From positions 434,001-498,000 of the forward strand of contig NZ_CP019770.1 of NCBI RefSeq assembly GCF_004328665.1: a DNA stretch of 64,000 bases, in the 5' to 3' direction. Position numbers and translations under genes: made by a program. Origin of the DNA: Pseudoalteromonas sp. DL-6 (GTDB taxonomy: Bacteria; Pseudomonadota; Gammaproteobacteria; Enterobacterales; Alteromonadaceae). Every line of letters starts with the position of its first letter. Positions within the stretch are counted from its first letter, which is position 1. Positions 18,090 through 61,610 of this stretch are shown in pieces. The notes beneath the pieces were generated by a model. The model was not told the origin of the DNA, did not search any database, and worked only from the letters and a program-made list of their open reading frames with translations.

Positions 18090-18136
18090 AAAACCTAAAA
18101 CCTAAAACCTAAAACCTAAAACCTAAAACCTAAAAC
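18090..18136. repeat. Tandem heptamer array, unit AAAACCT
   Basis: Six perfect 7-bp units (18090-18131) plus a partial AAAAC. On the opposite strand the unit reads TTTAGGT, fitting NNNN-(A/G)-G-N. The array runs into the 3' end of yjbQ: the TAG stop of that gene (18130-18132, minus strand) is part of a repeat unit. Confidence 0.95.
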
Positions 18137-18558
18137 TTTTCGCCTTGCAAAGTTGCAATAATACGTCTTGAACCGCCATGATCACGGTGCTCACCTAAGT
18201 ATATTCCTTGCCAAGTTCCTAGCGCTAACTGACCATCACTAATCGGTATAGTTAACTCACAACCTAAGGTACTGGTTTTTATATGGGCAGGCATATCATC
18301 ATCGCCCTCATAGTCATGGCGATAATAAGGCTGGCGCTCTGGAACAAACTGATTAAAGTGGCTTTCCATATCCATGCGTACCGTTGGATCGGCGTTTTCG
18401 TTAATAGTTAAGCTGGCTGAGGTGTGTTGAATAAATAAGTGTAATAAACCAACTTTAAGCTGGCTCAGTTGTGGGAGGTGAGTAAGTATGTCGTTATCAA
18501 TTAAATGAAAGCCTCGCGAGCGAGGCTTTAATGTAATCGTAGTTTGCGACCAGCTCAT
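18130..18558 (-). CDS. yjbQ: YjbQ family protein (secondary thiamin-phosphate synthase)
   Basis: 142 residues of the UPF0047/YjbQ family; E. coli YjbQ has weak thiamin-phosphate synthase activity, but its main role is uncertain. Family residues visible: [20 protein letters not shown], then D-MESHFN, and near the end [21 protein letters not shown] with conserved His and Glu. Its ATG overlaps the cheX stop by 4 bp, so translation is coupled. The final codons and stop (GEKF-stop) run into the AAAACCT array. Proximity to the thi operon (3.4 kb) may be coincidental. Confidence 0.85.
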
Positions 18559-19022
18559 AGCTTATCGAAACTCACTTCAATATTTGCATTACCTGCGTCA
18601 CTGGTAAATGGCATAAGAATTTTTTTGCCGTCACTTTTATGCGTAATGGTGTGGTTTGTACCAGAGACAACGATGGGAGTTGCCATGGCAAAGTCATAGC
18701 CTTTTTCCCCTAATAAATTCTTAGCTCCACCGGTAACCATATTGGTTATTTCGCCAACCATGTCAGTTACTTCTTCATTTATACTGTCTGGTCGCTCACC
18801 TAACATACGTTCCATAATAGTCAGTGCTAAACTCTCGTCGAAGGTAATTGAAAATGAACCACGAGTTTGCGGACCGACCATACCAATTAATCCCGATACA
18901 TCACCACAGGCTATCTCATCGGTTTTAATACGCGGCTTGCCTGGTTTTAATTGAGTTTGAGCCATAGTGCTCAATACATTCATCAAAGAAGATAAAAAGG
19001 GATTAATGAACTCTACATTCAT
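18555..19022 (-). CDS. CheX-like chemotaxis phosphatase domain protein
   Basis: 155 residues resembling the CheX/CheC/FliY group that dephosphorylates CheY-P. The family's paired (E/D)-x-x-N helix is seen as [15 protein letters not shown], with GLIGMVGP and GSFSITFDE strands. Only one such helix is obvious, as in CheX. No che or fli genes adjoin it; yjbQ overlaps it downstream and zur lies upstream on the same strand with a 63-bp gap. Target phosphoprotein unknown. Confidence 0.8.
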
Positions 19023-19085
19023 GTTAGATATCCTTAAATTGGTACTGATAAAGGGTATACGTAAAGTATAGCTATAGTCGCTCAG

Positions 19086-19520
19086 CTATGCTCGACAAGA
19101 GTCACATTTACCATGCGCTTCTATTGTTTGCCCTGAAACGACAAAGCCACTTTCAGCTGCTAAGTTATTGAGCTCATGTGAAATTACTGTTGAATGCAGC
19201 TCTTTAACAAAACCGCAGCTATCACAAATTAATAGCTGAACAGGATGAATATGATCAAAATGATGACACAGCATAAATGCATTGGTGCTTTCAATTTTAT
19301 GAATAAAACCGAGTTCGGCTAAAAAGTCTAAAGCACGATAAATTGTTGCAGGTTTAGCACCTGTTTCAGTGACTTTTAATTGTTCAAGTAAATCGTATGC
19401 ACCGACACCACCTTGGGCACTGGCTAATAAACGAAATACCTTTTCGCGAATTGGTGTGAATCGCGCACCACGGTTGTCGCATACTTGTTTTGCTTTACTT
19501 ACGAGTGATTCTATATTCAT
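19086..19520 (-). CDS. zur: Fur-family zinc uptake regulator Zur
   Basis: 144-residue metalloregulator: an N-terminal winged helix (FTPIREKVFRLL ... GAKPATIYRALDFLAELGFIHKI) and a C-terminal dimerisation domain. Structural-zinc cysteines CDSC and the late CDSC pair, plus a His-rich CHHFDHIHP site, point to Zur rather than Fur. Zur would repress zinc uptake under zinc sufficiency. It lies divergent from marC and two genes from dusA; E. coli zur is also near dusA. No confident Zur box was identified by eye. Confidence 0.85.
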   Translation of the reverse strand: MNIESLVSKAKQVCDNRGARFTPIREKVFRLLASAQGGVGAYDLLEQLKVTETGAKPATIYRALDFLAELGFIHKIESTNAFMLCHHFDHIHPVQLLICDSCGFVKELHSTVISHELNNLAAESGFVVSGQTIEAHGKCDSCRA

Positions 19521-19612
19521 CTTCTCTCATCCTTACGCTGCCGTGATATACTAACATACTGTATTGTAGTTGCAGCGTTTTATTAATTGATTTTGTCCAA
19601 AGGTATTCATTA

Positions 19613-20233
19613 ATGCATGAGCTATTAGCTATATTTATTTTCTTTTTTGCGGTTATTGATCCAATAGGCACCATCCCGGTTTTTATCGCTGTAACTCGGG
19701 GAGATGACGACAAGTTTAAGCGTAAAGTGATTTTTAAGGCCGTGGGTGTATCTGCTTTAGTGCTGTTATTTTTTGTGGTTGCTGGCGAGCAATTACTGAA
19801 TGTGATTGAGATCCCGCTCTCGGCATTTCAAATAGCGGGTGGTTTAATTTTATTAATTTTTGCACTCTCCATGACTTTTGGTGAAAGCAAGCCTGAAGCT
19901 GAAATTAAAAGTGTTAGAGACAGCACTGAAACCGCTATTTTTCCGCTCGCTATCCCATCAATAGCCAGTCCCGGTGCCATGTTAGGTGCGGTATTAATGA
20001 CACGCAATGAGGAGTATACCTGGGTTGAGCAAATGATTACCTCATCAATGATGTTAGCTGTTTTAGTGGTGGTACTGATTTTGTTATTACTTGCTACGCA
20101 TGTACATAAAATAATAGGTGATAGTGGGGCGAGTATTATTAGTCGAATTATGGGGTTAATTTTAAGCTCAGTCGCAGTGACTAATATTTTAAACGGTATT
20201 GCACAATACTTTGGCTTGCAAGTGTTTGCTTAA
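19613..20233 (+). CDS. MarC family membrane protein
   Basis: 206-residue inner-membrane protein with about six hydrophobic segments, the first starting at residue 5 (LLAIFIFFFAVIDPIGTIPVFIAV). The IDPIGTIPVF motif and the PLAIPSIASPGAM segment in the middle are characteristic of the MarC/YhgN family. The transported substrate of this family is not established; the older link to multiple antibiotic resistance was not upheld. Single gene between zur and dusA. Confidence 0.85.
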   Translation: MHELLAIFIFFFAVIDPIGTIPVFIAVTRGDDDKFKRKVIFKAVGVSALVLLFFVVAGEQLLNVIEIPLSAFQIAGGLILLIFALSMTFGESKPEAEIKSVRDSTETAIFPLAIPSIASPGAMLGAVLMTRNEEYTWVEQMITSSMMLAVLVVVLILLLLATHVHKIIGDSGASIISRIMGLILSSVAVTNILNGIAQYFGLQVFA

Positions 20234-20314
20234 TATTGCTGCGCATAGGGCTTTTGTGTAAAATGCAGCGCCGTTTAAGCTGTGCTTAAATTATAAATTT
20301 TTGAGGATCACATT

Positions 20315-21289
20315 TTGGATAAACGTACTTTAAATCGACGCTTTAGCGTGGCACCCATGCTTGATTGGACTGATCGCCACTGTCGTACGTTTCATCGTAA
20401 AATGACAAAACACACCGTGCTCTATACTGAAATGATCACTACTGGCGCTATTTTATTCGGTCGTGGTGACTACTTGCATTTTAATCAGCACGAAGGCCCT
20501 GTGGCATTGCAATTAGGTGGATCAGACCCGCAAGCGCTAGCACAGTGTGCCAAGCTTGCTGGTGAGCGCGGTTATGATGAAATAAACCTTAATGTAGGTT
20601 GTCCGTCAGATCGTGTGCAAAATGGACGTTTTGGTGCCTGTTTAATGGCCGAGCCTAATTTAGTTGCAGAGTGTGTTGCTGCAATGAAAAGTGAAGTGAA
20701 TATTCCGGTTACGGTTAAAACTCGTATTGGTATTGATGAGCAAGATTCTTATGAATTTTTATGTGCTTTGATAGAGGCTTCACATAAAGTTGGCTGTGAT
20801 GACTTTATTATTCATGCGCGCAAAGCATGGCTAAAAGGATTGAGCCCGAAAGAAAATCGCGAAGTTCCTGAGCTTAACTACCCCCGAGTTTATCAGCTCA
20901 AAAAAGATTACCCTCAACTTGATTTAAGTATTAACGGTGGTGTTAAAACCATTGAGCAAAGTCTTGAGCATTTACAGTACATAGATGGGGTTATGGTGGG
21001 CCGAGAGGCTTACAGTAATCCATTTATGCTTAATGAAGTAGATGAAAAAATTTATGGTGATGCGGCTAATACTCAGTCTCGACATGATGTTGTACGCTCT
21101 ATGTATGATTACATTGAAGAAGAGATGCGTTTAGGGGCTAATTTTTGGCATGTTGCACGCCACATGCTGGGTATTTTTCAGGGGCAACCCGGTGCGCGTG
21201 GCTTTAGACGCCACTTATCTGAAAATGGTCATGGTAAGCAAGCTGATTTAAGTGTTATGGATAAAGCGTTAAGTTACGTACCCGAGTAA
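20315..21289 (+). CDS. dusA: tRNA-dihydrouridine(20/20a) synthase
   Basis: FMN enzyme reducing uridine 20/20a in tRNA D-loops. 324 residues; N-terminal TIM barrel with [13 protein letters not shown], the catalytic cysteine in [27 protein letters not shown] and [17 protein letters not shown], then a helical C-terminal domain. The start is a TTG at 20315, set by GAGGATCA upstream; no in-frame ATG lies nearby. A terminator follows at 21.33 kb and the psp operon begins beyond it. Confidence 0.93.
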
Positions 21290-21330
21290 TGCCAATTTAA
21301 TGCAATTGGCATAACAGATACTCTTTATAG

Positions 21331-21358
21331 AAAAAGTCACCTCAGGTGGCTTTTTTTG
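21331..21358 (+). terminator. Terminator of dusA
   Basis: AAAAAGTCACC-TCA-GGTGGCTTTTTTT, with one G-T pair in the stem. A separate small palindrome (TGCCAATT/AATTGGCA, about 21290-21311) sits between the dusA stop and this hairpin. Confidence 0.85.
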
Positions 21359-21492
21359 ATCCCAAATTTTAGTCAAAAATGTAATTTATTAGCCAATTCG
21401 ACTTAATTTCATTCAGTGACTAGTCATTAACTTACCCGCCAAAAATAATTTAAATTATTGATATTTAATGAAAATAAAAGAATGTCAAGTTA

Positions 21493-21509
21493 TTGGCATA
21501 ACTCTTGGA
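21493..21509 (+). promoter_or_regulatory. Sigma-54-type promoter of the psp operon
   Basis: TTGGCATAACTCTTGGA has the -24 GG and -12 TTG elements at the consensus spacing (TTGGCAC-N5-TTGCA); the -12 GC is GG here. psp operons are classically driven by sigma-54 with PspF, and rpoN lies at 32.6 kb in this window. No pspF gene is present nearby. Confidence 0.65.
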
Positions 21510-21550
21510 ATCCTGTTGATGTATAAATAAAAAATCATCAGGAGAATAAC

Positions 21551-22243
21551 ATGGGTATATTTAATCGCGTAAACGACGTCATTCAAGCAAATATCGTAGC
21601 TATGCTTGATAAAGCCGAAGATTCAGAAAAACTACTTAATTTGATGCTAACCGAAATGCAGGAGGCACTTAATGAGTGTCGTAGCACCGCGGCAGCACTA
21701 TTATGTGAAGAAAAGAATATCAAGCGTCAAATAAGCAATAAACAACAAGCGCTCACAAATTGGCAATTAAAGGCCGAACATGCCATTGCAAAAAATCGTG
21801 ACGATTTAGCTAAATCAGCACTAGCTGAAAAACACAATGTCGAAATAAGCATAGAGTGCTTACAAACACAACTTGAGACATTGCAGCAATCAATTGTAAA
21901 AATCACAGAGGACTGTGAACGCCTGCAGCAAAAAATGACACAGGCTAAAGCAAAGCAAGCACAACTTGTAAAGCGTGAAAATGTGGTTGAGGCAAGATCT
22001 AAGATAAATACTCAGCTGCAGAGCGATAAAGTGGCCACTGCTTTATCACGATTTGAGCAAATTGAGCGTCGTGTTGAGAGTGTTGAATCGCAGGTCGAAG
22101 CATATGAGCTGACAGATACAGCGAGCAATACTGCGACGCAAATTGAGTCACTGGTTAAAAACGAAAAAATTGATGCAGAACTGGCAAGTTTAAAAGCGAG
22201 TTTAAATACTGCTAACAAACAAACAAACAAACAAACAGCCTAA
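21551..22243 (+). CDS. pspA: Phage shock protein A
   Basis: ESCRT-III-like peripheral membrane protein that stabilises the inner membrane and, in enterobacteria, restrains PspF. 230 residues, nearly all coiled coil. The amphipathic N-terminal helix GIFNRVNDVIQANIVAMLDKAEDSEKL and the L-x-L-M-L-TEM-x-EA motif are typical of PspA/IM30. AGGAGAATAAC precedes the ATG. The last codons run through a tetranucleotide repeat (about 22213-22237, five copies of AACA) encoding NKQTNKQTA, so the C-terminus may vary between strains. Confidence 0.93.
   Translation: MGIFNRVNDVIQANIVAMLDKAEDSEKLLNLMLTEMQEALNECRSTAAALLCEEKNIKRQISNKQQALTNWQLKAEHAIAKNRDDLAKSALAEKHNVEISIECLQTQLETLQQSIVKITEDCERLQQKMTQAKAKQAQLVKRENVVEARSKINTQLQSDKVATALSRFEQIERRVESVESQVEAYELTDTASNTATQIESLVKNEKIDAELASLKASLNTANKQTNKQTA
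22213..22237 (+). repeat. Tetranucleotide repeat at the end of pspA
   Basis: A run of AACA units, just over five copies, within the last codons of pspA and directly before its stop. Slippage would shift the frame only in the final residues and could extend the protein toward pspC. Confidence 0.85.
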
Positions 22244-22253
22244 GGAGATTGTT

Positions 22254-22460
22254 ATGAATAATTTTAATACGCATCGTCGTTGGTATAAAAATACGCTTAA
22301 CAAAAAAATATCAGGTGTCTGTAGTGGGTTAGCCTACCGACTAGACTTTCCGGTATGGTCTACTCGTTTAGTCACCGTTTTATTATTTTTAAGTTTTCCG
22401 TTTGCAGTGGCGCTAGGTTATTTAATTGCGCACTGTTGTCTTGAAGAAAAAGCAGTGTAA
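22254..22460 (+). CDS. pspC: PspC-domain membrane protein
   Basis: 68-residue inner-membrane protein with a single PspC domain: KKISGVCSGLAYRLDFPVWSTRLVTVLLFLSFPFAVALGYLIAHC, with one long hydrophobic helix. It is shorter than E. coli PspC (119) and lacks its cytoplasmic C-terminal leucine-zipper part. AGGAGATTGTT precedes the ATG, 10 bp after pspA. No pspB was found between pspA and pspC, so the signalling module is reduced. Confidence 0.85.
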   Translation: MNNFNTHRRWYKNTLNKKISGVCSGLAYRLDFPVWSTRLVTVLLFLSFPFAVALGYLIAHCCLEEKAV

Positions 22461-22470
22461 GGGGAGCAAC

Positions 22471-22797
22471 ATGAAAACTTTCGCCGTATGCCTACTTATT
22501 GTTACATTATTTTTAATTAATAGCGGTTCGATAATTCATTTTGATGTATGGCAATTTCCGCTGTGGATTTCAGATATTAGTTGGACAGGTATTGAGCTCA
22601 TTGGGGCGTTAGTCGCCATTATTGTTGTTATTGCGATTGCTGCTTTGGTAACCATGGGGCTTGTTGGCGCGGCGATGGTGGCACTGGCTGGAACTATATT
22701 AGCCTTTTTATTCGGATCATTGATGATTGCTTGGCCATTATTGTTTGTGGCAGGGTTATGCTGGTTAATCGCAGATAACAAAAAAGTGGCTTCTTAA
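22471..22797 (+). CDS. Psp-operon membrane protein, unknown function
   Basis: 109 residues, about three hydrophobic segments (residues 3-18, a long 40-75 stretch, and 85-102) and a short basic tail DNKKVAS. The frame extends upstream into pspC, but GGGGAGCAAC before ATG 22471 fixes the start. It lies 10 bp after pspC and clearly belongs to the operon. It is not PspB (which is short with a single helix and a coiled coil) and no known family was recognised; a membrane partner of PspA/PspC is the natural guess. Confidence 0.7.
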   Translation: MKTFAVCLLIVTLFLINSGSIIHFDVWQFPLWISDISWTGIELIGALVAIIVVIAIAALVTMGLVGAAMVALAGTILAFLFGSLMIAWPLLFVAGLCWLIADNKKVAS

Positions 22798-22875
22798 ACT
22801 TAAATTAGCTGCCTAATATTAGGGAATTATGATAAATTTGGACTATATTTTTATGTTTTAACAAGGATTTTACTG

Positions 22876-23385: not shown

Positions 23386-23393
23386 GGGGATAA

Positions 23394-30951: not shown

Positions 30952-31794
30952 TTATTCTTGTTCTCTGTGACGAATTTTTACATTAGGATGACTCATTGCA
31001 AAACTTTCACCTATAGTTTGCGCTAAGTAAACAGAACGGTGTTGCCCACCAGTACAACCAATGGCTATGGTCAAATAGCTGCGGTTATTTCTTTCTAAAT
31101 GCGGCAACCATGTTTGTACAAAGGTTTGAATTTGCCATGTAAATTTTTGTACTATGCTGTGGCTGGCTAGGTAGTCTTTTACCGGTTGATCTAGCCCTGT
31201 GAGTGGCTTAAGTTCAGGCTCCCAATGCGGGTTTGGTAAAAATCGGGCATCGAATACGTAATCTGCTTCTTTGGGTATACCGTGCTTAAAACCAAATGAC
31301 TCAAAGGTAATGATCAGTTGTTTGTCTTTTTTACCGAGTATTTTTTCACGGATAGACTCAGCCAGCTGATGCACACTTAAATCAGTGGTATCAATCATAT
31401 GATCAGCATGATTGATCAAAACATCCAGTAGTTGTTTTTCTTTTTTTATTGCTAAATCAAGCGGTAGAGAATCAATAGAAAGAGGGTGAAGACGCCTAGT
31501 TTCCGAAAAGCGTTTAATTAATGTTTGATCGTCACTGTCTAAATAAAACACCGTTGGTTTAGTGAAACCAGGTAAATATTCAATGATTTCATTAAACTGT
31601 TGCTGCTCTTTAGGTAAGTTACGCACATCAACACTTACGGCAATTTTGTTGTAGCTGTCGGAAACACTTCGAACAAGAGATGGTAATAAATTTAAAGGAA
31701 TATTATCTACACAATAATAACCTAAATCCTCAACAACCCGTAACGCAACAGATTTACCAGAACCTGAGCGACCACTTATTATTATTAATTCCAT
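30952..31794 (-). CDS. rapZ: RNase adapter protein RapZ
   Basis: 280-residue nucleotide- and RNA-binding protein; in E. coli it delivers the sRNA GlmZ to RNase E, tuning GlmS. Walker A GRSGSGKS at residues 8-15, Walker B-like VFYLDSDDQ and the C-terminal GCTGGQHRSVYLAQTIG region are all present. Usual position between ptsN and npr. Confidence 0.95.
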   Translation of the reverse strand: MELIIISGRSGSGKSVALRVVEDLGYYCVDNIPLNLLPSLVRSVSDSYNKIAVSVDVRNLPKEQQQFNEIIEYLPGFTKPTVFYLDSDDQTLIKRFSETRRLHPLSIDSLPLDLAIKKEKQLLDVLINHADHMIDTTDLSVHQLAESIREKILGKKDKQLIITFESFGFKHGIPKEADYVFDARFLPNPHWEPELKPLTGLDQPVKDYLASHSIVQKFTWQIQTFVQTWLPHLERNNRSYLTIAIGCTGGQHRSVYLAQTIGESFAMSHPNVKIRHREQE

Positions 31795-48053: not shown

Positions 48054-48325
48054 GTAGCAGCGGGTTTACCCCGCGTAAATTTGGTCTTTTCTCGAACCCG
48101 GAGGCTTTATCCTGCGCAAGATTTTCTTCTCTGTGTAGCGTGCAGCGCCTCGGTGCACTCTGTGGTGCAAAAAATTAAAACATCATTTACCACAGAGGTC
48201 ACAGAGTCCACAGAGGAAGAGATTAAAGGCAAAGGTTTTAGGCAGAGATTAAGCCAAGCACAGTGTTTGGCTTAAACGGCGGGGCTTTACGCCGCGCACA
48301 TGTAGCAGCGGATTTATTCCGCGTC
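48054..48325 (+). repeat. Composite intergenic repeat, copy 1
   Basis: Mosaic of hairpin blocks. GTAGCAGCGG-type hairpins at 48054-48076 and 48302-48325; a GGCTTTA-type hairpin at about 48103-48119 and again at 48276-48297; and a block at about 48120-48215 with CTCTGTGGTGC facing ACCACAGAGG. The 48103-48243 and 48279-48325 parts recur almost unchanged at 61.28-61.42 and 61.48-61.53 kb. An open frame at 48081-48275 lies within the repeat and is judged non-coding. Confidence 0.85.
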
Positions 48326-48329: not shown

Positions 48330-48378
48330 TTAAAGGTCAAAGCGAAAGGTAAAGAGCGACGGGCAACGGGTCTCTAGC
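48330..48378 (+). repeat. Degenerate heptad run before terminator
   Basis: Seven consecutive 7-bp units (for example TCAAAGC, GAAAGGT, GACGGGC, AACGGGT) each with purine-G at positions 5-6. They face the perfect CTCGAAC array across the terminator at 48401-48436. Confidence 0.6.
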
Positions 48379-48400
48379 AAAACATCTAACTTCTAAATAA

Positions 48401-48436
48401 AAAAACCTTGCGATGTTAACCGCAAGGTTTTTTTAT
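48401..48436. terminator. Bidirectional terminator downstream of gor
   Basis: AAAAACCTTGCG / CGCAAGGTTTTT with an eight-base loop and long A/T tracts. For gor it lies beyond the 77-bp heptamer array. Confidence 0.88.
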
Positions 48437-48438: not shown

Positions 48439-48515
48439 CTCGAACCTCGAACCTCGAACCTCGAACCTCGAACCTCGAACCTCGAACCTCGAACCTCGAA
48501 CCTCGAACCTCGAAC
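48439..48515. repeat. Tandem heptamer array, unit CTCGAAC
   Basis: Eleven perfect copies, exactly 77 bp. On the minus strand the unit reads TTCGAGG in the common register. The array ends at 48515, immediately next to the TAA stop codon of gor (48516-48518). Confidence 0.98.
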
Positions 48516-49877
48516 TTACCTCATGGTAACAAACTCTTCAGACCCGGTTGGGTGTAGTGCAACCACGGCGTCAAAATCGGCTTTAGTGGCGCCCATTTTC
48601 ATGGCGACTGCAAAACCCTGAATCATTTCATCAACGGTAAAACCAATACCGTGTAAGCCCACAACTTTTTCATCATCGCCTACACACACAAGCATCATGT
48701 TACATGCTTGGCGGTGCTGAGTAACTGCGGTGTACATAGCTGCAAAGCTCGATTTATATACTTTTACATTTTCGCCGCCGTACTGAGAAATAGCTTCTTG
48801 CTCAGTTAAGCCAATTGTGCCGATAGGTGGATGGCTAAATACTACGGTTGGTACTAGGCTGTAGTCCATTTTTAAATCGTTCGGCAATTCTTTATTAAAT
48901 AAACGCTCCGATAGAGTACGACCCGCTTTAACAGCAACCGGTGTAAGCTCAATACCATTTTCGATAATATCACCCACAGCGTATACATTTTCAGCTGTGG
49001 TGTTTTGGTATTCATCTACTTTTACATAACCGCTTTCGTTTACTTCTACGCCTGCTGCAGCAAGGTTAATTTTATCGGTTGTTGGCGTGCGGCCTATAGC
49101 CCAAATAACCTGATCAACATTTTCGCTGTAACCATTCTCGAAATGAATCGTTAAGCTGCCATCAGCCTCTTTTACCACTTCTTTTGGTGAACACTCAGTG
49201 TGCAGTGTTGGGCCTTCTTTTGCCATAATATCAACCAGTGTGTCGATAATGTATGGGTCAAAGGTACGCAGTGGCTTGCTCTTACGAACAAATAAGTGAG
49301 TTTGTGTACCTAAGCTGTGCAGCACACCGGCAATTTCTACGGCAATATAACCGGCACCAACAACAGCAACGCGTTTAGGTTGTTCGTTCAGCTCAAAAAA
49401 GCCGTTTGAATCAATACCGTGTTCAGCACCTGGAATATTAGGGATAGTAGGGCGGCCACCAACGGCAACTAAAATGTGATCGGCAGTATAGTGCTCGCCA
49501 TCTACTTCAACGGTCTTACTATCAACAAATTTTGCAAAACCTTTAATCACGGTAACGCCATTTTTAGCTAAACCGTTATCATAGCCTTTATGAATACGAC
49601 CAATATAAGCTTCACGACTTTCTACTAGTTTTGACCAGTCAAAGCCTTTTACTTCTACATCAAAACCGTAATCAGGAGCATAAAGATTAATTGCTTCAGC
49701 AACTTGAGCACCGTGCCACATTACTTTTTTAGGAACACACCCTACGTTTACGCAGGTGCCACCCATGTGTTTTGCTTCAATAAGTGCTACTTTTGCGCCA
49801 CGCATTGCTGCACGGTTAGCTGATGCAATACCACCACTACCGCCACCAATTGCAATGTAATCAAAATGCTGAGCCAT
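48516..49877 (-). CDS. gor: Glutathione-disulfide reductase
   Basis: FAD/NADPH enzyme keeping glutathione reduced. 453 residues: [17 protein letters not shown] for FAD, the redox pair in [13 protein letters not shown] (Cys42, Cys47), NADPH-binding [15 protein letters not shown] and the C-terminal [11 protein letters not shown] with catalytic His. The frame opens 20 codons upstream (49937), but AGAGGATTAAAC before ATG 49877 gives [10 protein letters not shown] and the normal length. Transcribed away from prlC. Confidence 0.95.
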
Positions 49878-50107
49878 GTTTAATCCTCTAAATGTGTTTA
49901 ACAATGTTTTACCGATAATATCATATGCGATGAACAAGTCACTTGTTCAGGTTTGCTAAAATCTCTACCATCAAACGAAAATCAAGCTAGTTAAGATCAA
50001 GGTATTAGTAGTCGAGCGTATATTAAGCTAAGAGCTGAACACTTCCCCTTGTATTTACGTATTTTGCCCCAACTTCATTTTTATATTTGCATAAACTGAG
50101 AATGACT

Positions 50108-53565: not shown

Positions 53566-54321
53566 GTGGTTATACAGTGTGCGTTTAAAGAGTGTCGACC
53601 TTATTTAAATGAGTTAGAAGCACGCTTTAGGCTTGCTCAATGGGCAGAGCAAAGCAGTGGTTTTAGCTTGCATTACGATGATAAAGGACTAAGCCTGTAT
53701 AAAACTGACGAGCCAAAATTAGGTGCTATTAACGTAGACTTTGTAACTGGTGCCGTTGCACATAGGCGTAAATTTGGTGGTGGTAAAGGGCAATCAATTG
53801 CCAAAGCGGTTGGCCTTAATAAGGGCGCAACGCCAGTGGTACTCGATGCCACAGCAGGCCTTGGACGCGACGGTTTTGTGTTAGCCTCGCTAGGCTGTAA
53901 AGTAATTCTACATGAGCGCCATCCCGTGGTTGCTGCACTGTTATATGATGGCTTACAACGTGCTTATAACGATAGTGAAATTGGCCCATGGATGCAGCAA
54001 AATATGAGCCTTATCTTTGGCTCAAGCCATACCTTACTTGCCCAATGTGACAGCATGCCCGATGTGGTTTACCTTGATCCTATGTTTCCGCACCGTGAAA
54101 AATCAGCACTGGTTAAAAAAGAAATGCGGGTATTCCAAGAGTTAGTGGGTGGCGATACCGACGCCGATGATTTACTCGATTTTGCTTACCCCCTTGCCAG
54201 TAAGCGTGTAGTAGTGAAACGCCCCGATTACGCACCATTTTTAAATGATAAAACTCCAAGCATGCAAATCAAAACCAAGAAGAACCGCTTTGATGTATAT
54301 GTAAAAGCCGCGATGGTTTAG
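53566..54321 (+). CDS. rsmJ: 16S rRNA (guanine1516-N2)-methyltransferase
   Basis: SAM-dependent methyltransferase for m2G1516 in 16S rRNA. 251 residues; [34 protein letters not shown] is the SAM-binding region and [11 protein letters not shown] the catalytic N/DPPF-like motif. GTG start at 53566, six bases after GGAG. The stop codon TAG lies in GTTTAGGTTAAAG, itself a heptad-like sequence. Confidence 0.93.
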
Positions 54322-54515: not shown

Positions 54516-54663
<148 letters not shown>

Positions 54664-54762: not shown

Positions 54763-55488
54763 ATGATCTTAGATGATATCCGCATCGTTTTAGTTAATAC
54801 CTCACATTCTGGTAATATTGGTTCTGCGGCACGCGCCATGAAAACCATGGGATTATCAAAGTTATACCTTGTAGATCCTGCCTGTGAAATAGATAGCCAT
54901 GCCAGCGCACTGGCTGCAGGTGCTACTGATGTTCTCGGAAATGCGGTTATTGTTGATACGGTTGCCGATGCCATTGCTGATTGTGCATTAACTATTGGTA
55001 CTAGCGCTCGCTCGCGTACATTGTCGTGGCCTATGGTTGAGCCGCGTGAATGTGGTGAAAAGCTTGTTGGCGAAGCTGTAAATGGCCCTGTAGCACTTGT
55101 ATTTGGTCGTGAAAACAGTGGCTTAACAAACGAAGAATTACAACTGTGTAATTACCATGTGTGTATTCCTGCTAACCCAGAATACAGCTCGCTAAATTTA
55201 GCCATGGCAGTACAAACCTTATGTTATGAAACGCGTATGGCATTTCTAAATCAACAGCCTAAAGCGGAACAAGAAGAAGACGAAACCCTATATCCATCGT
55301 CTAAACAAACAGAGCTGTTTTACGAACATCTTGAAGATACCTTGTTTAAAACAGGCTTCATCATTAAGCAGCACCCAGGCATGGTAATGACTAAGCTACG
55401 TCGCTTGTTTAATCGTGCTCGCCCTGAAGATGCTGAAATGAACATATTGCGAGGTATTCTTACCTCAATTAATAAGTCTATAAAATAG
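54763..55488 (+). CDS. trmJ: tRNA (cytidine/uridine-2'-O-)-methyltransferase TrmJ
   Basis: SPOUT methyltransferase modifying the ribose at position 32 of several tRNAs. 241 residues: [21 protein letters not shown] at the start, [14 protein letters not shown] and the SAM knot [17 protein letters not shown]. The frame opens at 54739 but ATG 54763 gives the family start [11 protein letters not shown]. Adjacent to iscR as in E. coli. Confidence 0.94.
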
Positions 55489-56182: not shown

Positions 56183-56206
56183 GGTTGACCTGCAGCGGAG
56201 AGAGAA

Positions 56207-57424
56207 ATGAAGTTACCGATTTATTTAGATTACGCAGCAACTACGCCCGTTGACGAACGAGTTGCCAAAGAAATGATGCAGTGCCTGACTATGGACGGTA
56301 ATTTTGGTAATCCAGCATCGCGTTCACACCGTTTTGGTTGGCAAGCTGAAGAAGTCGTTGACCAAGCACGCACTGACATTGCTGATTTAATTAATGCAGA
56401 CCCACGTGAAATCGTATTCACATCGGGTGCAACAGAATCAAATAACCTTGCTATTAAAGGTGCGGCTCAGTTTTACAAGAAAAAAGGTAAGCATGTTATT
56501 ACCGCTAAAACTGAACACAAAGCAGTTATCGACACATGTCGTGAGCTTGAGCGTCAAGGGTTTGAAGTAACTTATATGGACGTTGAAGAAAACGGCCTAC
56601 TTGATCTGCAAAAATTAGCAGATACGATGCGTGACGACACTGTGCTTGTAAGCATTATGCATGTAAATAACGAGCTAGGTGTAATCCAAGACATCAACAC
56701 TATTGGTGAAATGTGTCGCGAACGTAAAATTATGTTCCACGTAGATGCAGCACAAAGCGCAGGTAAAGTTTTAATCGATGTGCAACAAACCAAAGTAGAT
56801 TTCATGTCATTCTCGGCGCACAAAGTATACGGCCCTAAAGGCGTAGGTGCTTTGTATGTTCGCCGTAAACCACGTGCACGTTTAGAAGCACAAATGCACG
56901 GTGGCGGCCATGAGCGTGGTATGCGTTCTGGTACATTAGCAACCCATCAGTTAGTAGGTATGGGCGCAGCATTTAGAATTGCAAAACAAGATTTTGAAAA
57001 AGATCACGCACACATCAGTGCGTTACGTAAACGCCTAATCGACGGCATTTTAACAGATATGGACGAAGTGTACTTTAACGGCACACAAGACCAATCAGTA
57101 CCTGGTATTGTTAATATCAGCTTTAACTTTGTTGAAGGTGAGTCGTTACTAATGGCCGTTAAAGATATTGCGGTATCGTCAGGTTCAGCCTGTACATCTG
57201 CAAGTTTAGAACCTTCTTACGTATTACGTGCATTAGGCCGCAACGACGAATTAGCACATAGTTCAATTCGTTTTAGTATTGGCCGTTTTACCACAGAAGA
57301 AGAGATTGATTACACCGTTGAGCTAATGAAAAACTCGATTGGCCGTTTACGTGAAATGTCTCCTCTTTGGGAAATGCACCAAGAAGGTGTTGATTTAGAT
57401 TCAGTTGAATGGGCACACCACTAA
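56207..57424 (+). CDS. iscS: Cysteine desulfurase IscS
   Basis: PLP enzyme that takes sulfur from cysteine for Fe-S clusters and, via other partners, for thiamin and tRNA thiolation; it is thus the probable sulfur source for ThiF/ThiS here. 405 residues; PLP lysine Lys206 in [12 protein letters not shown] and persulfide cysteine Cys329 in [18 protein letters not shown]-terminus DSVEWAHH for IscU contact. AGAGAGAA precedes the ATG. Confidence 0.97.
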
Positions 57425-57464
57425 TTAGTGGAGCCCATACCTAGCAGGTAGTGAGGATAGAATT

Positions 57465-57848
57465 ATGGCTTACAGTGATAAAGTAATCGACCACGTAGAA
57501 AACCCACGTAACGTAGGTGCTCTAGATAAAAACGATCCGTCAGTGGCAACGGGTATGGTAGGCGCACCAGCATGTGGTGACGTAATGAAACTGCAAATTA
57601 AAGTGTCTGCAGAAGGCGTGATTGAAGATGCAAAATTCAAAACGTACGGCTGTGGTAGTGCAATTGCTTCATCTTCACTGGTAACAGAGTGGGTTAAAGG
57701 CAAAACACTAGACGAAGCGTCTACTATCAAAAATACCGATATCAGCGCAGAGCTAGAATTACCACCAGTGAAAATTCACTGTTCAATTTTAGCAGAAGAT
57801 GCAATTCAAGCAGCAATTGCAGATTACAAAAGCAAACATACAAACTAA
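57465..57848 (+). CDS. iscU: Fe-S scaffold protein IscU
   Basis: Platform on which new clusters are built. 127 residues; cluster ligands Cys37 (GAPACGD), Cys63 (YGCGSA) and Cys106 (KIHCSI), and the HscA-recognition motif LPPVK at 99-103. Confidence 0.97.
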   Translation: MAYSDKVIDHVENPRNVGALDKNDPSVATGMVGAPACGDVMKLQIKVSAEGVIEDAKFKTYGCGSAIASSSLVTEWVKGKTLDEASTIKNTDISAELELPPVKIHCSILAEDAIQAAIADYKSKHTN

Positions 57849-57857
57849 GAGATATTC

Positions 57858-58181
57858 ATGGCAGTGACATTGACAGATGCGGCAGCAAACCGCGTACAAT
57901 CATTTTTAGCAAACCGTGGTAAAGGCATTGGCCTGCGAGTTGGCATTAAAACGACGGGCTGTTCAGGTCTTGCTTATGTATTAGAGTTTGTTGATGAGCT
58001 AAACGATGACGATGAAACATTTGCGGCTAAAGGCGTTACCTTAATTGTTGACGCTAAAAGCTTAGTTTATATCGACGGCACTGAGCTCGACTACACTAAA
58101 GAAGGCTTAAATGAAGGGTTTAAATTTAATAACCCTAATCAAGCTGATGAGTGTGGTTGTGGTGAAAGCTTTACCGTTTAA
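57858..58181 (+). CDS. iscA: Fe-S carrier protein IscA
   Basis: A-type carrier delivering clusters to apoproteins. 107 residues; Cys35 (TTGCSGLAY) and the C-terminal Cys99/Cys101 (ECGCGESF) are the metal ligands. It follows iscU by 9 bp. Confidence 0.96.
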
Positions 58182-58222
58182 GCTCAAACTTGTTTTGAAT
58201 ACCTAAGCTACTTGGGTATAAC

Positions 58223-58251
58223 TAAGCCCTGCCAATTAATGTAGGGCTTTG
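58223..58251 (+). other. Hairpin between iscA and hscB
   Basis: AAGCCCT / AGGGCTT (about 58224-58249) in the 86-bp gap, followed by only two or three T. It may be a weak attenuator or processing site separating iscRSUA from hscBA-fdx expression. Confidence 0.5.
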
Positions 58252-58267
58252 TCATTTGTGAGAAGTT

Positions 58268-58795
58268 ATGCGTTATTTTGAGTTATTTGCAATTCCCGTT
58301 GACTACAATATTGATTTAGCAACGATCAACAAGCACTACTTAGAACTTCAACGTGCTGTTCATCCTGATCGCCATGCTAATGCCAGCAGCCGTGATAAAT
58401 TAATGGCCGTGCAAAGTACTGCCGAAATTAATGATGCACTGCAAACACTCAAGCACCCCGTTAAACGTGCAGAATATATGCTGAGTGAGCTGGGCGTTGA
58501 TATTCGCGCTGAGCAGCAAACATTGCAAGATCCCATGTTTTTAATGCAGCAAATGGAGCTTCGCGAAGAACTTGAAGAGTTAGCGACCACAAGCGATCCT
58601 GATTCTGCTATTGCTCATTTTGAAAAACAAATAAAGCAGCTTGATCAGCAATATAGTGCGCAATTGGCAGAGCAGTTAGCAAGTAACGATGAGCAGCAAT
58701 ATCAACAAGCAGCAGACAGCATTCGTAAGCTAAAGTTTGTCTATAAGTTACGCGACGAACTAGAACGCATAGAAGACAGTTTATTTGATCAGTAA
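58268..58795 (+). CDS. hscB: Fe-S co-chaperone HscB
   Basis: J-domain protein that brings IscU to HscA. 175 residues; HPD at 32-34 (AVHPDRH) and a C-terminal three-helix bundle (about 80-175) binding IscU. ATG preceded by GAGAAGTT. Confidence 0.95.
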   Translation: MRYFELFAIPVDYNIDLATINKHYLELQRAVHPDRHANASSRDKLMAVQSTAEINDALQTLKHPVKRAEYMLSELGVDIRAEQQTLQDPMFLMQQMELREELEELATTSDPDSAIAHFEKQIKQLDQQYSAQLAEQLASNDEQQYQQAADSIRKLKFVYKLRDELERIEDSLFDQ

Positions 58796-58867
58796 TACCA
58801 ATAGCATTTAATAATTGGTTAATAATTCACTTGCTGCAAAGCGAGCAACACGAGTTTAAAGAGCATT

Positions 58868-60730
58868 ATGGCATTATTGCAAATTGCTGAGCCGGGGCAG
58901 AGCGCGGCACCACATGAACATAAATTAGCAATTGGAATTGACTTAGGTACCACAAATTCATTGGTTGCGACCGTACAAAGCGGTGAAGCACGCACAATTA
59001 CTGATGAATCAGGCGAAGCAATGTTGCCGTCTGTAGTGCGTTACCAAGCTGGTGGTATAACCGTGGGTGCAGACGCAATGCAAGCAGCTACACTCGATCC
59101 GGTTAATACACTCATTTCAGTTAAGCGCTTTTTAGGTAAAACCCAAGCCGAAATAGAACAAAGCTATGGCCAACTACCTTATCAATTTTGCGATGATAAC
59201 GGTGCACTGGCTATAGTAACTGAAGCCGGGAAAATCAGCCCAGTAAAAGCATCAAGTCATATTTTAGGTGCCTTAAAAGCACGTGCAGAACAAAGCTTTG
59301 GTAATCAAGATATTTTAGGCGCGGTTATCACCGTACCGGCCTATTTCGATGATGCACAGCGCCAAAGCACTAAAGATGCGGCTGAACTTGCCGGCATTAA
59401 TGTACTGCGTTTATTAAACGAGCCAACCGCGGCTGCCGTTGCTTATGGTTTAGATTCAGGCCAAGAAGGCATAATTGCTGTTTATGACTTAGGTGGCGGA
59501 ACATTTGATATTTCTATACTGCGCTTAAATAAAGGCGTGTTTGAAGTATTGGCCACTGGTGGCGATTCAAGCCTAGGCGGCGACGACTTTGACTCATTAT
59601 TAGTTGACTACCTCAAACAAGAAACTGGCGTGACGGGCTTATCTCCTTCGGTATTACGTTTATTTATAAATAAAGCCAAAGCCTGTAAAGAAGCACTCAG
59701 CCAATACGAAAAAGTAAATGTTGGCCTTGAGTTTGACGATGAAAAATACATGGTTGAAGTAACGCGAGAGAAGTTTAACGAGCTGGCTATGCCACTGGTT
59801 AAAAAAACGCTCCGCTCATGTCGTCGTGCAGTAAAAGATGCCGGTATTGAAAACCAAGAAGTATTACAAGTGGTGATGGTTGGCGGTTCAACCCGCATGC
59901 CGTTGGTACGTACTCAAGTTGGCGAGTTTTTTGATAAACAACCACTCACTTCAATTGACCCTGATCGTGTTGTTGCTCTGGGTGCCGCATTACAAGCAGA
60001 CGTATTAATTGGTAACAAGCCAGATTCAGACATGTTACTGCTGGATGTGTTACCGTTGTCGCTAGGCCTTGAGACTATGGGTGGCTTGGTTGAAAAAATC
60101 ATTCCACGCAATACCACTATTCCAGTTGCACGTGCGCAAGAATTTACTACGTTTAAAGATGGTCAAACGGCCATGTCGTTGCATGTATTACAAGGCGAAC
60201 GTGAACTGGTTGACGATTGTCGATCGCTGGCAAAATTCAGCTTAAAAGGCATTCCTCCTATGGCGGCGGGGGCGGCGCATATTCGCGTTACCTTTAAAGT
60301 AGACGCTGATGGTTTACTAAGCGTATCGGCTATGGAAAAATCAACTGGCGTTCAAGCAGAAATACAAGTAAAACCGTCGTTTGGTTTGTCTGACGACCAA
60401 GTTGCTAATATGCTTAAAGAGTCGATGAGTAACGCTAAAGGCGACATGCAAGCGCGTATGCTTAAAGAGCAACAAGTTGAAGCGCTTCGTGTAATAGAAG
60501 CAATGGAAGCCTCTTTAGCAGCTGATGGCGATTTACTTGAGCCTGAGCAACTAGCGGCGCTAAAAGTGGAAATAAACGAACTTGCAAAAGTACGCGAGAG
60601 TGCACAAGAGCCAAGCGAAATTAAAGCAGCCATTGAAAAAATGGACAATGCGAGTAGTGATTTTGCCGCGCGTAGAATGGATGCATCAATTAAAAAAGCC
60701 TTAACAGGCCAGTCAGTAGACAATATATAA
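58868..60730 (+). CDS. hscA: Fe-S chaperone HscA
   Basis: Specialised Hsp70 that releases clusters from IscU. 620 residues: ATPase with [25 protein letters not shown] and [10 protein letters not shown]; substrate domain after the linker [17 protein letters not shown]; helical lid at the C-terminus. The short N-terminal extension ([18 protein letters not shown]) is typical of HscA, not DnaK. Confidence 0.96.
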
Positions 60731-60741
60731 GAGAGATTAGA

Positions 60742-61080
60742 ATGCCACAAATTGTTTTTCTTCCCCATCCGGAGTTGTGTCCTGACGGTGCTGCAATAGA
60801 AGCGCCCGCTGGCGAAACGGTACTTGATATCGCGCTTAAAAATGGCATTAGCATTCCTCATGCCTGTGAAAAATCATGTGCATGTACAACCTGTCACTTA
60901 GTGATCCGTGAAGGTTTTGACTCATTAGATGAAAGTGACGATCTAGAAGACGACATGCTAGATAAAGCCTGGGGTTTAGAACCAGAGTCACGTTTAGGTT
61001 GCCAAGCAATTATTAGAGATGAAGACTTAGTGGTTGAAATACCTAAGTACAATCTCAATATCGTTAATGAAGAACACTAG
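60742..61080 (+). CDS. fdx: ISC-type [2Fe-2S] ferredoxin
   Basis: Electron donor for cluster assembly. 112 residues; ligands Cys42, Cys48, Cys51 (CEKSCACTTC) and Cys87 (RLGCQA). Last gene of the operon: iscX, which follows fdx in E. coli, is not present before the terminator and repeats that start here. Confidence 0.96.
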   Translation: MPQIVFLPHPELCPDGAAIEAPAGETVLDIALKNGISIPHACEKSCACTTCHLVIREGFDSLDESDDLEDDMLDKAWGLEPESRLGCQAIIRDEDLVVEIPKYNLNIVNEEH

Positions 61081-61104
61081 TTTTTAATTAACGACTATTA
61101 TATT

Positions 61105-61136
61105 AAAAGCCGCTGTTTAATACCGCGGCTTTTTTG
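61105..61136 (+). terminator. Terminator of the isc operon
   Basis: AAAAGCCGC (61105-61113) pairs with GCGGCTTTT (61125-61133), followed by T, 25 bp after the fdx stop. Confidence 0.82.
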
Positions 61137-61146
61137 TTTGTATTAA

Positions 61147-61534
61147 GTAGCAGCGGGTTTATCCCGCGTCTTTTTAAAGGTTAAAGGTTACGAGCGGCGG
61201 GCTGCGAGACGCGGGTAAGCCAAAAGCTCTATAAGTGCGTTAGGTAAACTCCCGACTAAAAGGTGGCGAACATTGTTTTGTAGGCGAGGCTTTTCGCCGC
61301 GCAAGTTTTTCTTCTCTGTGTAGCGCGCAGCGCCTCGGTGCACTCTGTGGTGCAAAAAATTAAAACACTATTTACCACAGAGGCCACAGAGAATGAGATT
61401 AAAGACAAAGGTTTTAGGTTAAAGGTTAAAGGCAAAAGGTTACGAGCGACGGGCTGCGAGGCGCGGGTAAATTAAAATAGCCTGTAGGCAGGGCTTTACG
61501 CCGCGCACATGTAGCAGCGGATTTATTCCGCGTC
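61147..61534 (+). repeat. Composite intergenic repeat, copy 2
   Basis: Holds the GTAGCAGCGG hairpin twice (61147-61170, 61511-61534), the GGC-TTT-CGCC hairpin (about 61281-61299), and the CTCTGTGGTGC/ACCACAGAGG block (about 61300-61392), matching the 48-kb copy in order and orientation. Six degenerate heptads occupy 61175-61216. This and the flanking array fill the 549 bp between fdx and gabD; no gene is seen. Confidence 0.85.
61392..61468 (+). repeat. Degenerate run of eleven heptads
   Basis: Eleven consecutive 7-bp units (77 bp), e.g. CAAAGGT, TTTAGGT, TAAAGGC, TACGAGC, GACGGGC, CGCGGGT, all with purine-G at positions 5-6. TTTAGGT is the complement of the 18-kb array unit in register. Confidence 0.6.
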
Positions 61535-61610
61535 TCGAAACCCGAAGCCCGAAACCCGAAACCCGAAACCCGAAGCTCGAAGCTCGAAGCCCGAAACCCG
61601 AAACCCGAAA
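61534..61610. repeat. Tandem heptamer array, units CYCGAAR
   Basis: Eleven units, exactly 77 bp, in four variants: CTCGAAA (1), CCCGAAA (6), CCCGAAG (2) and CTCGAAG (2). Minus-strand register TTCGGGT/TTCGAGC. It ends about 10 bp before the AGGAGGT-like (CCGGAGGT) ribosome-binding site of gabD. Confidence 0.97.

Follow-up and report, generated by a model that had tools for sequence, protein, structure and literature searches.

The heptanucleotide arrays of Pseudoalteromonas sp. DL-6 and its relatives are probably near-neutral sequences that grow by polar, length-dependent, replication-coupled slippage in 7-nt steps on dispersed seed modules (rough probability 0.6). An equivalent replication-bound recombination step could take the place of slippage, and a similar picture could arise if arrays recombined with one another. 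Long arrays lay nearly all the same way to the replication fork, therefore suggesting DNA copying, and not a special enzyme, as the cause.

Arrays in the window and their surroundings

A preliminary description of the window (the whole stretch of 64,000 nucleotides that was analysed) had reported four tandem arrays with a 7-bp period. Tandem Repeats Finder (TRF) detected all four, with 6.9, 11.0, 21.1 and 10.9 copies. The features recorded were as follows.

18089..18136, minus strand (G strand): array (GTTTTAG)6.9, TRF, 100%
48334..48382, plus strand: degenerate heptads with RG 7 times in succession at step 7
48404..48434, no strand assigned: terminator-like hairpin AACCTTGCG...CGCAAGGTT and T tract, by eye
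48439..48515, minus strand: array (GTTCGAG)11.0, TRF, 100%
54516..54663, minus strand: array (CGGTCAG)21.1, TRF, 100%
61174..61220, plus strand: degenerate heptads TTAAAGG TTAAAGG TTACGAG CGGCGGG CTGCGAG ACGCGGG, by eye; 61174-61190 by TRF
61396..61472, plus strand: degenerate heptads with RG 11 times in succession at step 7
61407-61442: degenerate array, 5.1 copies, 72%, TRF
61511..61534, plus strand: palindrome GTAGCAGCGGATTTATTCCGCGTC, immediately preceding the fourth array
61536..61611, minus strand: mixed array of GTTTCGG and CTTCGAG units, 10.9 copies, TRF, 91%

The first array supplies the TAG stop codon of yjbQ (ORF 18130-18558, minus strand). The second starts immediately past the TAA stop codon of gor (glutathione reductase, 48516-49937, minus strand) and is followed immediately, as seen from gor, by the hairpin at 48404..48434. 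The third is flanked by an rsmJ-like gene (53566-54321, score under the curated cut-off) and trmJ (54763-55488), and the mixed array by fdx (60742-61080) and a succinate-semialdehyde-dehydrogenase-like gene (61630-63057, score likewise under the curated cut-off). Phase-variation repeats, by comparison, lie in or next to surface or antigen genes and switch a reading frame or promoter; the comparison covered the neighbours listed here for the window loci and, for the 18 sampled arrays, their absence from coding DNA. The palindrome at 61511..61534 is one that we take to be REP-like, and the 256-bp mosaic around it had 53 matches in the own genome, mostly partial.

Excess of period 7 and length threshold

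Perfect arrays of at least three copies and at least 18 nt were counted by period. In 1.14 Mb sampled across the own genome outside the window, 13 were of period 7, and the remaining periods between 2 and 30 had none, indicating that the strict 7-nt step described for the window holds beyond it. With the window included, 18 arrays of period 7 were found versus one of period 4; among the 18, a single window array accounts for two as separate segments, and another is the AT-rich run TATTTTT at C1:2376815. This run was included in the 18-array count, the coding/non-coding count, the in-array mismatch rates, the gene-direction analysis and the first polarity count, and was excluded from the unit-motif tests, the even-sample polarity and neighbour analysis, the final polarity counts and the stop counts at 91 loci. 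One first-order Markov shuffle of 804 kb (periods 2-20) contained no such array, and the only array in five shuffles of 1.14 Mb (periods 5-9) had period 5. In 11 other genomes of the genus, 48 arrays of period 7 were found versus 4 of other periods, 41 of the 48 coming from stretches of G095, G100 and G105 around the region syntenic with the window. Hence the comparison of periods that had been proposed as a check showed period 7 to be much the commoner in these samples.

In the non-coding DNA of a 1.204-Mb sample, repeats of 2.0-2.5 copies numbered 31 at period 7, 87 at period 6 and 8 at period 8, whereas at three or more copies there were 18 at period 7 and none at periods 5, 6 or 8-14; the coding DNA of this sample held none of the 18. 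Two-copy heptamers are thus not enriched and only arrays of three or more copies are, implying that growth begins above a length threshold. The arrays share the defining features of heptanucleotide long simple sequence repeats (LSSR), being head-to-tail, perfect or near-perfect 7-nt units in at least three copies, longer and more frequent than chance, with a copy number that varies between related genomes.

Copy number at a given site differs between related species, and sometimes the unit does too. The CTGACCG site (54516..54663) has 21.1 copies versus 9.1 in G105, and its junction in G095 carries CCGAACC-type units instead. Another shared site has 11 copies versus 3, 3 and fewer than 2 in relatives, and a further one 12.6 versus 75.6; two P. 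shioyasakiensis records, with 90% identity over their aligned parts, showed 8.7 copies versus about 2. The TTCAAGG site at C1:549539 was almost constant, with 6.4 copies, and 7.0 in all three relatives. Units changed at shared sites from GGCAACG to GGTAACG and from CCTAGAA to CCTCGAA or the reverse, and the samples show some sites where a unit variant of one base has become uniform along the array.

Orientation relative to the replication fork

The C-rich strand, which reads CYNNNAS, was the nascent leading strand (= lagging template) in 59 of the 76 orientable arrays and the reverse held in 17, the full set of 91 loci including 15 ambiguous ones; counting TATTTTT in favour gives 60 versus 17. 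Polarity was 9 versus 9 below five copies, 50 versus 8 at five or more and 30 versus 2 at eight or more, and arrays in the favoured orientation were longer (medians 8.1 versus 4.4, Mann-Whitney p=0.0002). The hallmark of orientation-dependent replication slippage, a length that depends on fork orientation, is therefore present as an association in natural arrays.

The loci are not independent (orthologues, dispersed modules). Grouping by flank cluster gave 18 versus 6, with 4 mixed and 7 ambiguous, at all lengths, a weak test (p=0.023); the clusters stood at 18 versus 2 with 1 mixed for five or more copies, and at 15 versus 0 with 1 mixed for eight or more. The locus set also takes in loci picked by motif patterns searched on both strands, as well as own stretches picked for containing CTCGAAC arrays (L039-L041), without which polarity was 48 versus 13. 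The evenly sampled own loci alone gave 8 versus 2 (p=0.11). The oppositely oriented arrays include the 12.6-copy GGCAACG array and, in three genomes, the one at the TTCAAGG site.

The own origin and terminus were set by GC skew; G057, G037, G099 and G097 were checked by skew at sampled points, and fork direction in G044 and G023 was taken from local skew. For G095 and G100 the skew samples covered just 390-540 kb and the 5-kb loci, and for G101 a single 5-kb locus; the origin of all three was assumed at the contig start. Matches to the GTTNNRG pattern in further genomes were oriented as predicted in 3/3 cases in G099, 1/1 in G023 and 2/3 in G044 (leaving aside a fourth match, which on the circular map is 14 kb away from the exception); G003 had no match to this pattern, and the single match in G061 was not a clean array. 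Both arrays in the sampled stretches of G099 were oriented against the prediction. The polarity test in further genomes is small and mixed.

Two other causes of polarity were rejected. Composition fails because GC skew favours G on the leading strand, where the arrays have C. Nor is gene direction enough by itself, as polarity was still 12 versus 5 at five or more copies where both neighbours were co-directional, a difference not significant alone.

Unit sequences

The window units had been described as sharing a hidden RG consensus in which RG is kept while the rest drifts. RG is present on one strand of 87-90% of random heptamers, and the consensus of the window set (five units, the fourth array contributing two) was equalled by 14/200 random and 13/200 shuffled unit sets. 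Larger sets did share a motif, STNNNRG (= CYNNNAS), and the differing units, which are real, are yet members of this one class. Thirteen own units from the even sample gave 5.98 bits versus 4.88 +/- 0.31 for random sets, 10 own units without the window gave 6.11 versus 5.07 +/- 0.34, and 30 genus units (33 minus three obtained by motif-pattern searches) gave 5.55 versus 4.09 +/- 0.17; in each case 0/150 random sets did as well. For the own units, 1/150 attained the observed consensus when the AT run was restored. Register conservation is thus better than random with many arrays and no better than chance with the window units alone. Own units were also mutually closer than random sets (mean nearest-neighbour distance 1.13 versus 1.80).

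Along C-Y-N-N-N-A-S, the mismatch rates within arrays were 0.22, 0.15, 0.15, 0.23, 0.25, 0.36 and 0.37 (110 imperfect units, 6 of which belong to the AT run). These rates do not support the description of RG as the part that is kept; RG as an invariant was rejected on this ground and because random unit sets equal it. With perfect arrays masked, runs of at least seven RG at step 7 occurred only at 48334 and 61396 in 804 kb, four times in L039-L041 and not at all in one shuffle. This evidence is weak alone because runs of this kind also occur at step 9 (6 in 804 kb) and step 12 (3 in 804 kb). Of 108 genomes of the genus, the pattern (GTTNNRG)x5 hit 35 and the reversed control 3; the pattern also matched at least 119 stretches from many phyla in a wider contig collection, a scan run without reversed control. 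GTTNNRG-type units thus occur widely; nothing further rests on the wider scan.

Proposed mechanism and alternatives

Under the slippage reading, heptad-rich stretches on dispersed intergenic modules (array, terminator and REP-like palindrome) would serve as seeds, and slippage at fork passage would extend those in a permissive orientation, in many cases immediately beyond the stop codon of a gene head-on to the fork. The later spread of point mutations along an array might then account for units that differ yet fall into a single motif class. Replication slippage alone leaves the hugging of stop codons and the choice of a 7-nt step unaccounted for. Loops of more than about 4 nt escape mismatch repair, which would rule out short units and not those of 5, 6 or 8.

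Collisions between fork and RNA polymerase would extend the slippage reading, with growth where the replisome meets transcription head-on, at the 3' ends of lagging-strand genes; this is a tentative proposal, with odds well short of even. With genes taken as simple ORF calls of at least 100 codons, a stop codon lay within 10 bp of the array at 29/91 loci (wholly outside the array at 20/91), versus 128/2,277 random 40-bp intergenic placements (5.6%). In the set including TATTTTT, an ORF start lay within 10 bp at 1/92 loci and a stop at 29/92. Stop-adjacent genes were head-on to replication in 26/30 cases, versus 231/644 ORFs of the same loci, and in 18/21 where the stop was outside the array; by cluster, 11 were head-on, 3 co-directional and 1 both. 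Furthermore, 15 of the 29 own arrays with both neighbours known sit between convergent genes, which make up 22% of intergenic length. However, the polarity that persists between co-directional neighbours (see above) speaks against collisions, several arrays at stop codons represent copies of a single dispersed module, and the array overlaps the stop codon in 9/30 stop-adjacent cases, so that part of the hugging may reflect arrays ending reading frames.

It is unlikely that dispersal is the whole explanation, with arrays as passengers of REP/BIME-like modules moved by a RAYT-type transposase and the motif a matter of common descent. Ordinary spread of one repeat had been discounted at the outset, which is half right: GTTCGAG arrays at five sites (C1:482439, 539707, 545423, 555748 and 561268) do ride a dispersed module of array and terminator, and four of the five also show the REP-like palindrome in the stretch displayed (both by eye). 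The partial matches of the 256-bp mosaic and the closeness of the own units agree with dispersal. However, no match to the Y1 transposase (RAYT, PF01797) was found in the array-rich G100 (16 arrays/140 kb) and G105 (15 arrays/120 kb), G000 having 2 matches, so RAYT is not needed as a cause and the dependence on it that marks REP/RAYT elements was not observed. Nor does dispersal yield period-7 growth above three copies, in-place change of copy number, or polarity. It probably supplies the seeds of the arrays.

We consider it very unlikely that the heptads are a functional 3'-UTR element that binds an RNA-binding protein or tunes mRNA ends, G-strand heptads being kept in the transcript by selection. 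The order stop codon, G-strand heptads, hairpin and T tract recurs at several genes (by eye), and CspB is reported to bind heptamer direct repeats in the available text of PMC4679880. Against this, copy number, unit and presence turn over among close relatives, the genes flanking the window arrays are unrelated housekeeping genes, and C-strand-sense arrays follow replication too (24 versus 7 at five or more copies with the nearest gene co-directional).

A long shot is that the array forms a ladder of primase start sites: every 7 nt the lagging template would offer a CY (primer RG), and Okazaki-fragment ends would realign one unit along, chiefly where fork and transcription collide head-on. If true, this would explain the CY/RG motif, polarity and location together. 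Gammaproteobacterial primases favour CTG, and the fit is partial because only part of the units carry CTG. The known bacterial start trinucleotides CTG, CTA, TTA and CCC all open with two pyrimidines, as listed in the available part of PMC5204125. The CY positions are not specially conserved within arrays (110 imperfect units), which counts against the ladder.

Hairpin pausing, in which lagging-strand synthesis stalls at a terminator past the array, was rejected as a model: the 78- and 81-copy arrays of G037, and likewise some G057 arrays, have no evident adjoining hairpin (judged by eye). It is retained at most as a modifier of array growth. Loss of MutS is not needed as a cause either, since among 7 genomes only G105 had no MutS match, and its 15 arrays in 120 kb compare with 16 in 140 kb for G100. 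As to the slippage- or enzyme-driven generator first suggested, the slippage type is supported; of dedicated enzymes, the two kinds examined, RAYT and reverse transcriptase, are not. A telomerase-like or other templated addition would suit a step of almost exactly 7 nt despite many unit sequences, but is scarcely credible, since reverse transcriptase had no match in G000 and G095, both with abundant arrays and thus not in need of it, RAYT had none in G100 and G105, and the units are variable, with single-base changes arising at a given site.

Significance and comparison with known repeat systems

Heptamers have been known since 2007 to be over-represented among bacterial repeats, without a tested cause in the accounts of PMC4679880 and PMC4692102. 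A genus with period 7 as the near-sole long tandem period, a threshold of about three copies and strong fork polarity offers a clean system for asking why seven. The arrays might also serve for typing strains and, possibly, as natural reporters of difficulties that the fork meets at gene ends.

A literature search found no paper on heptamer arrays in Pseudoalteromonas. The preliminary description had named the heptanucleotide STRR repeats of cyanobacteria as an analogue. The available texts of PMC4692102 and PMC4679880 bear this out: several different heptamers occur within one genome, with three in Calothrix (PMC4692102). The GGGAATC repeats of Xanthomonas and GGGGA(C/T)T of Nostoc resemble the present arrays in their 7-nt units, heterogeneous arrays, mostly intergenic position near ORF ends, and length and sequence that vary among related species; they differ in their units, in having one unit type per genome and in being studied as G-quadruplex candidates, as far as PMC4692102 describes them. 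GGGAATC and GGGGAYT were absent among the own units of the samples. TAACTGA repeats (Beggiatoaceae, cyanobacteria, Bacteroidetes) are likewise 7-nt direct repeats at gene borders, and their reverse complement, as TTATCAG, is one base off the CTATCAG and GTATCAG units found here; by the available account in PMC4679880, which mentions Pseudoalteromonas proteins matching translated TAACTGA repeats, they differ in having one unit, with 2-6 copies mostly immediately before start codons in a Beggiatoaceae genome. Among the own units there was no TAACTGA, and arrays lay within 10 bp of an ORF start at just 1/92 loci.

The instability of CAG/CTG repeats is similar in that the bias between expansion and contraction depends on orientation to the replication origin; as covered in the available part of PMC3310812, those repeats are 3-nt, hairpin-forming and mostly studied in eukaryotic or viral test systems, whereas a natural 7-nt population is described here. 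Among long simple sequence repeats, heptamers are the commonest class in most repeat-rich genomes, and slippage together with a 7-nt polymerase contact has been proposed (Mrazek 2007, as summarised in PMC4679880 and PMC4692102). Compared with LSSR as summarised there, the Pseudoalteromonas samples are near-free of other periods, their units are of one motif and array length is tied to fork orientation. What is new here is the polarity and length dependence of natural heptamer arrays relative to the fork.

Heptanucleotide arrays and the period of seven

The four period-7 arrays that the preliminary description had claimed in the window are real, and all were recovered by Tandem Repeats Finder together with a degenerate fifth array.

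Arrays of the window (Tandem Repeats Finder)
18089-18136: yjbQ array, 6.9 copies
48439-48515: gor array, 11.0 copies
54516-54663: trmJ array (CTGACCG), 21.1 copies
61407-61442: degenerate fifth array
61536-61611: mixed array, 10.9 copies, 91% matches

Three consecutive tRNA-Gly (GCC) genes lie at 17502-17966 of the window; by eye, there is also a fourth, degenerate copy (about 17666-17735) that matches the tRNA in its 5′ part and not in its 3′ part.

The genome of strain DL-6 (two contigs, 3,905,249 bases) was sampled as the window (434001-498000 of the contig NZ_CP019770.1, C1) plus 57 stretches of 20 kb across both contigs, and perfect arrays of at least three copies and at least 18 nt were counted for periods 2 to 30. 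The results showed 13 arrays of period 7 and none of any other period in the 1.14 Mb outside the window, confirming that period 7 is far commoner than other periods. With the window included (1.204 Mb), there were 18 arrays of period 7 and one of period 4, the latter being (AACA)6 at 22214-22237 near the end of the ORF 21551-22243. No period-7 array was found in shuffled DNA (one shuffle of 804 kb and five of 1.14 Mb). When 12 kb of the second contig were compared with 72,556 plasmid records, five matched, all from Pseudoalteromonas, at 75-77% identity, which supports the genus given in the preliminary description.

In a further eleven Pseudoalteromonas genomes, each sampled over 100 to 140 kb, there were 48 arrays of period 7, compared with two of period 6, a single one of period 10 and a 21-nt composite of heptads. 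Of these 48, 41 came from G095, G100 and G105 stretches surrounding the syntenic counterpart of the window and are therefore not independent of it. The stretches of G016, G037 and G107 (100 to 140 kb each) held no such arrays, and those of G102 a period-6 array only. Chromid stretches of P. shioyasakiensis and Bsw20308 (named records, 250 kb) held four arrays of period 7, one of period 8 and two of period 14, each of these two built from two heptads. In NZ_CP077771.1 (stretch L316), 14-bp arrays of 8.4 and 7.5 copies, starting at 31307 and 31425, both alternate two heptads, forming higher-order repeats.

Non-coding arrays of 2.0-2.5 copies fell smoothly with period (87, 31 and 8 for periods 6, 7 and 8), whereas at three or more copies there were 18 of period 7 and none of periods 5, 6 or 8-14 (window included in both counts). 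None of the 18 lay in coding DNA. The excess is thus absent at two copies and present from three, suggesting that growth beyond about three copies is what sets period 7 apart.

Change at orthologous sites

Sites were compared with three relatives, of which G105 and G095 are about 96% identical around the window and 92-93% further on, and G100 90%. The trmJ array has 21.1 copies versus 9.1 at the same site in a relative; the gor array 11 versus 3, 3 and fewer than 2; the TAAAACC array beside yjbQ 6.9 versus 16.9 and 5.3; and the array at C1:548330 12.6 versus 75.6 in one relative, with no array in the other two. The TTCAAGG array at C1:549539 is nearly constant (6.4 versus 7.0 copies in all three). 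Units differing by one base were homogenised (GGCAACG/GGTAACG at C1:511632; CCTAGAA/CCTCGAA at C1:512021), the perfect part of the mixed array at 61536 is all CGAAGCC in G105 and G095, and at the trmJ site the junction that holds CTGACCG in the window is occupied in G095 by two units of CCGAACC type. For 4 of 19 sites a counterpart was placed in none or just one of the relatives. Arrays of 78, 81 and 83 copies were found in G037 and G100.

At a contig end of G020 (C27:12731-14343, L061), two adjacent trmJ copies of equal score are surrounded by AGCTATC arrays, reflecting either array-mediated duplication or an assembly artefact. No MutS_V match was found in G105, in contrast to the six sister genomes examined; G105 is possibly a natural mutator or has an assembly gap. 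G037 has thirteen reverse-transcriptase matches, several equal in score, which may reflect recent proliferation of an RT element.

Shared motif and replication polarity

The hidden consensus proposed for the window's units did not stand on those units themselves, as their common-motif score was equalled by 14 of 200 random and 13 of 200 shuffled sets, and RG occurs on one strand or the other in 87-90% of random heptamers. A common motif did emerge with more units: the best alignment scored 5.98 bits for 13 units of the even DL-6 sample (random 4.88 ± 0.31), 6.11 for the 10 without the window (5.07 ± 0.34) and 5.55 for 30 genus units (4.09 ± 0.17), reached by none of 150 random sets in each case. 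When an AT-rich run (TATTTTT, C1:2376815) was restored to the DL-6 units, 1 of 150 sets reached the score. The genus motif reads C-Y-N-N-N-A-S on the C-rich strand (S-T-N-N-N-R-G on the G-rich strand). The pattern (GTTNNRG)x5 matched 35 of 108 genus genomes, and its reversed control 3 of 108. The DL-6 units resemble one another more closely than the units of random sets do, with a mean nearest distance of 1.13 versus 1.80, as expected under common descent. The idea that the RG pair is kept while the rest drifts was not upheld, since mismatches within arrays do not particularly spare the CY positions.

Units were oriented by the motif alone, blind to replication, and replichores were taken from GC skew or from an origin assumed at the contig start. 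Among 91 loci, 59 had the C-rich strand as nascent leading strand and thereby as lagging-strand template (favoured), 17 the reverse and 15 were ambiguous. Grouping the loci by alike flanks gave 18 clusters with the favoured orientation and 6 with the reverse, besides 4 mixed and 7 ambiguous ones (p = 0.023). For/against counts were 19/6 in DL-6, 8/3 in G095, 14/4 in G100, 6/0 in G057, 3/1 in G037, 3/1 in G044, 3/0 in G023, 2/0 in G097, 1/0 in G101 and 0/2 in G099. The polarity strengthens with array length: 9 to 9 below five copies, 50 to 8 from five (clusters 18 to 2, 1 mixed) and 30 to 2 from eight (clusters 15 to 0, 1 mixed), both last exceptions being a single orthologous pair, GGCAACG. 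Its direction is opposite to that of the overall GC skew, in which G is in excess on the leading strand. For pattern matches in five genomes the polarity was predicted beforehand; it was found in 3/3 in G099, 2/3 in G044 (of four matches) and 1/1 in G023, while G003 had no match and the single match of G061 was not a clean array. The two G099 arrays of the locus count run counter to the prediction.

Genomic place

A stop codon lay within 10 bp of the array at 29 of 91 loci in ten genomes (20 of 91 with the stop wholly outside the array), compared with 5.6% (128 of 2,277) of random 40-bp intergenic placements; an ORF start lay that close at one of 92 loci. Of 30 array-adjacent stops, 26 belong to genes that run head-on to the fork (18 of 21 for stops outside the array), compared with 231 of 644 ORFs in the same loci. 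In 9 of the 30 the stop lies at least partly inside the array, so termination of reading frames by arrays may account for part of this proximity. In DL-6, 11 of 33 loci lay within 7 bp of a head-on gene's stop, and one of the 11 abuts a co-directional stop as well. Both neighbours were known for 29 arrays, 15 of which lay between convergent genes, in gaps that make up 22% of intergenic length.

Judged by eye, a stop codon is typically followed by G-strand heptads, then by a hairpin with a T tract, a REP-like palindrome and degenerate heptads. At C1:482439, 539707, 545423, 555748 and 561268 the array and its terminator, again by eye, have the appearance of a single dispersed module downstream of different genes. 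The 256-bp mosaic before the mixed array has 53 matches in DL-6, mostly partial, 7 to 54 in six other genomes and none in G044. A CACAGAG-type palindromic intergenic repeat belonging to this mosaic lies at 48190-48216 (period 9 by Tandem Repeats Finder) and about 61300-61395 of the window. Three GGTTCGG arrays at distant places in G100 (L288, L289 and L290) share a downstream flank, a dispersed array-bearing module.

Mechanism and comparison with known repeats

The samples thus show specificity for period 7, a length threshold for growth, turnover at given sites, a fork polarity among long arrays and a bias towards stop codons and head-on genes. Dependence on repeat length, unit length and fork orientation in otherwise drifting DNA is how replication slippage should look, the step of seven being left unaccounted for. 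On this reading the polarity would be due to slippage and not to loss or selection, dispersed modules would act as array seeds and head-on transcription would contribute. Neither a RAYT, nor a reverse transcriptase, nor MutS loss is needed as a cause. For CAG/CTG repeats, PMC3310812 describes expansion that depends on orientation, and a 7-nt polymerase contact was proposed by Mrazek (2007), as cited in PMC4692102 and PMC4679880.

The Pseudoalteromonas arrays belong with the heptanucleotide long simple sequence repeats. The portions of the heptamer-repeat literature available contain no mention of replication polarity in natural heptamer arrays, and a literature search brought up no paper on the subject. 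As far as those portions go, the Xanthomonas, Nostoc and Beggiatoaceae heptamers differ from the Pseudoalteromonas arrays in unit and lack their diversity of units under one motif, and the Beggiatoaceae repeats lie before starts, whereas the Pseudoalteromonas arrays lie behind stop codons.
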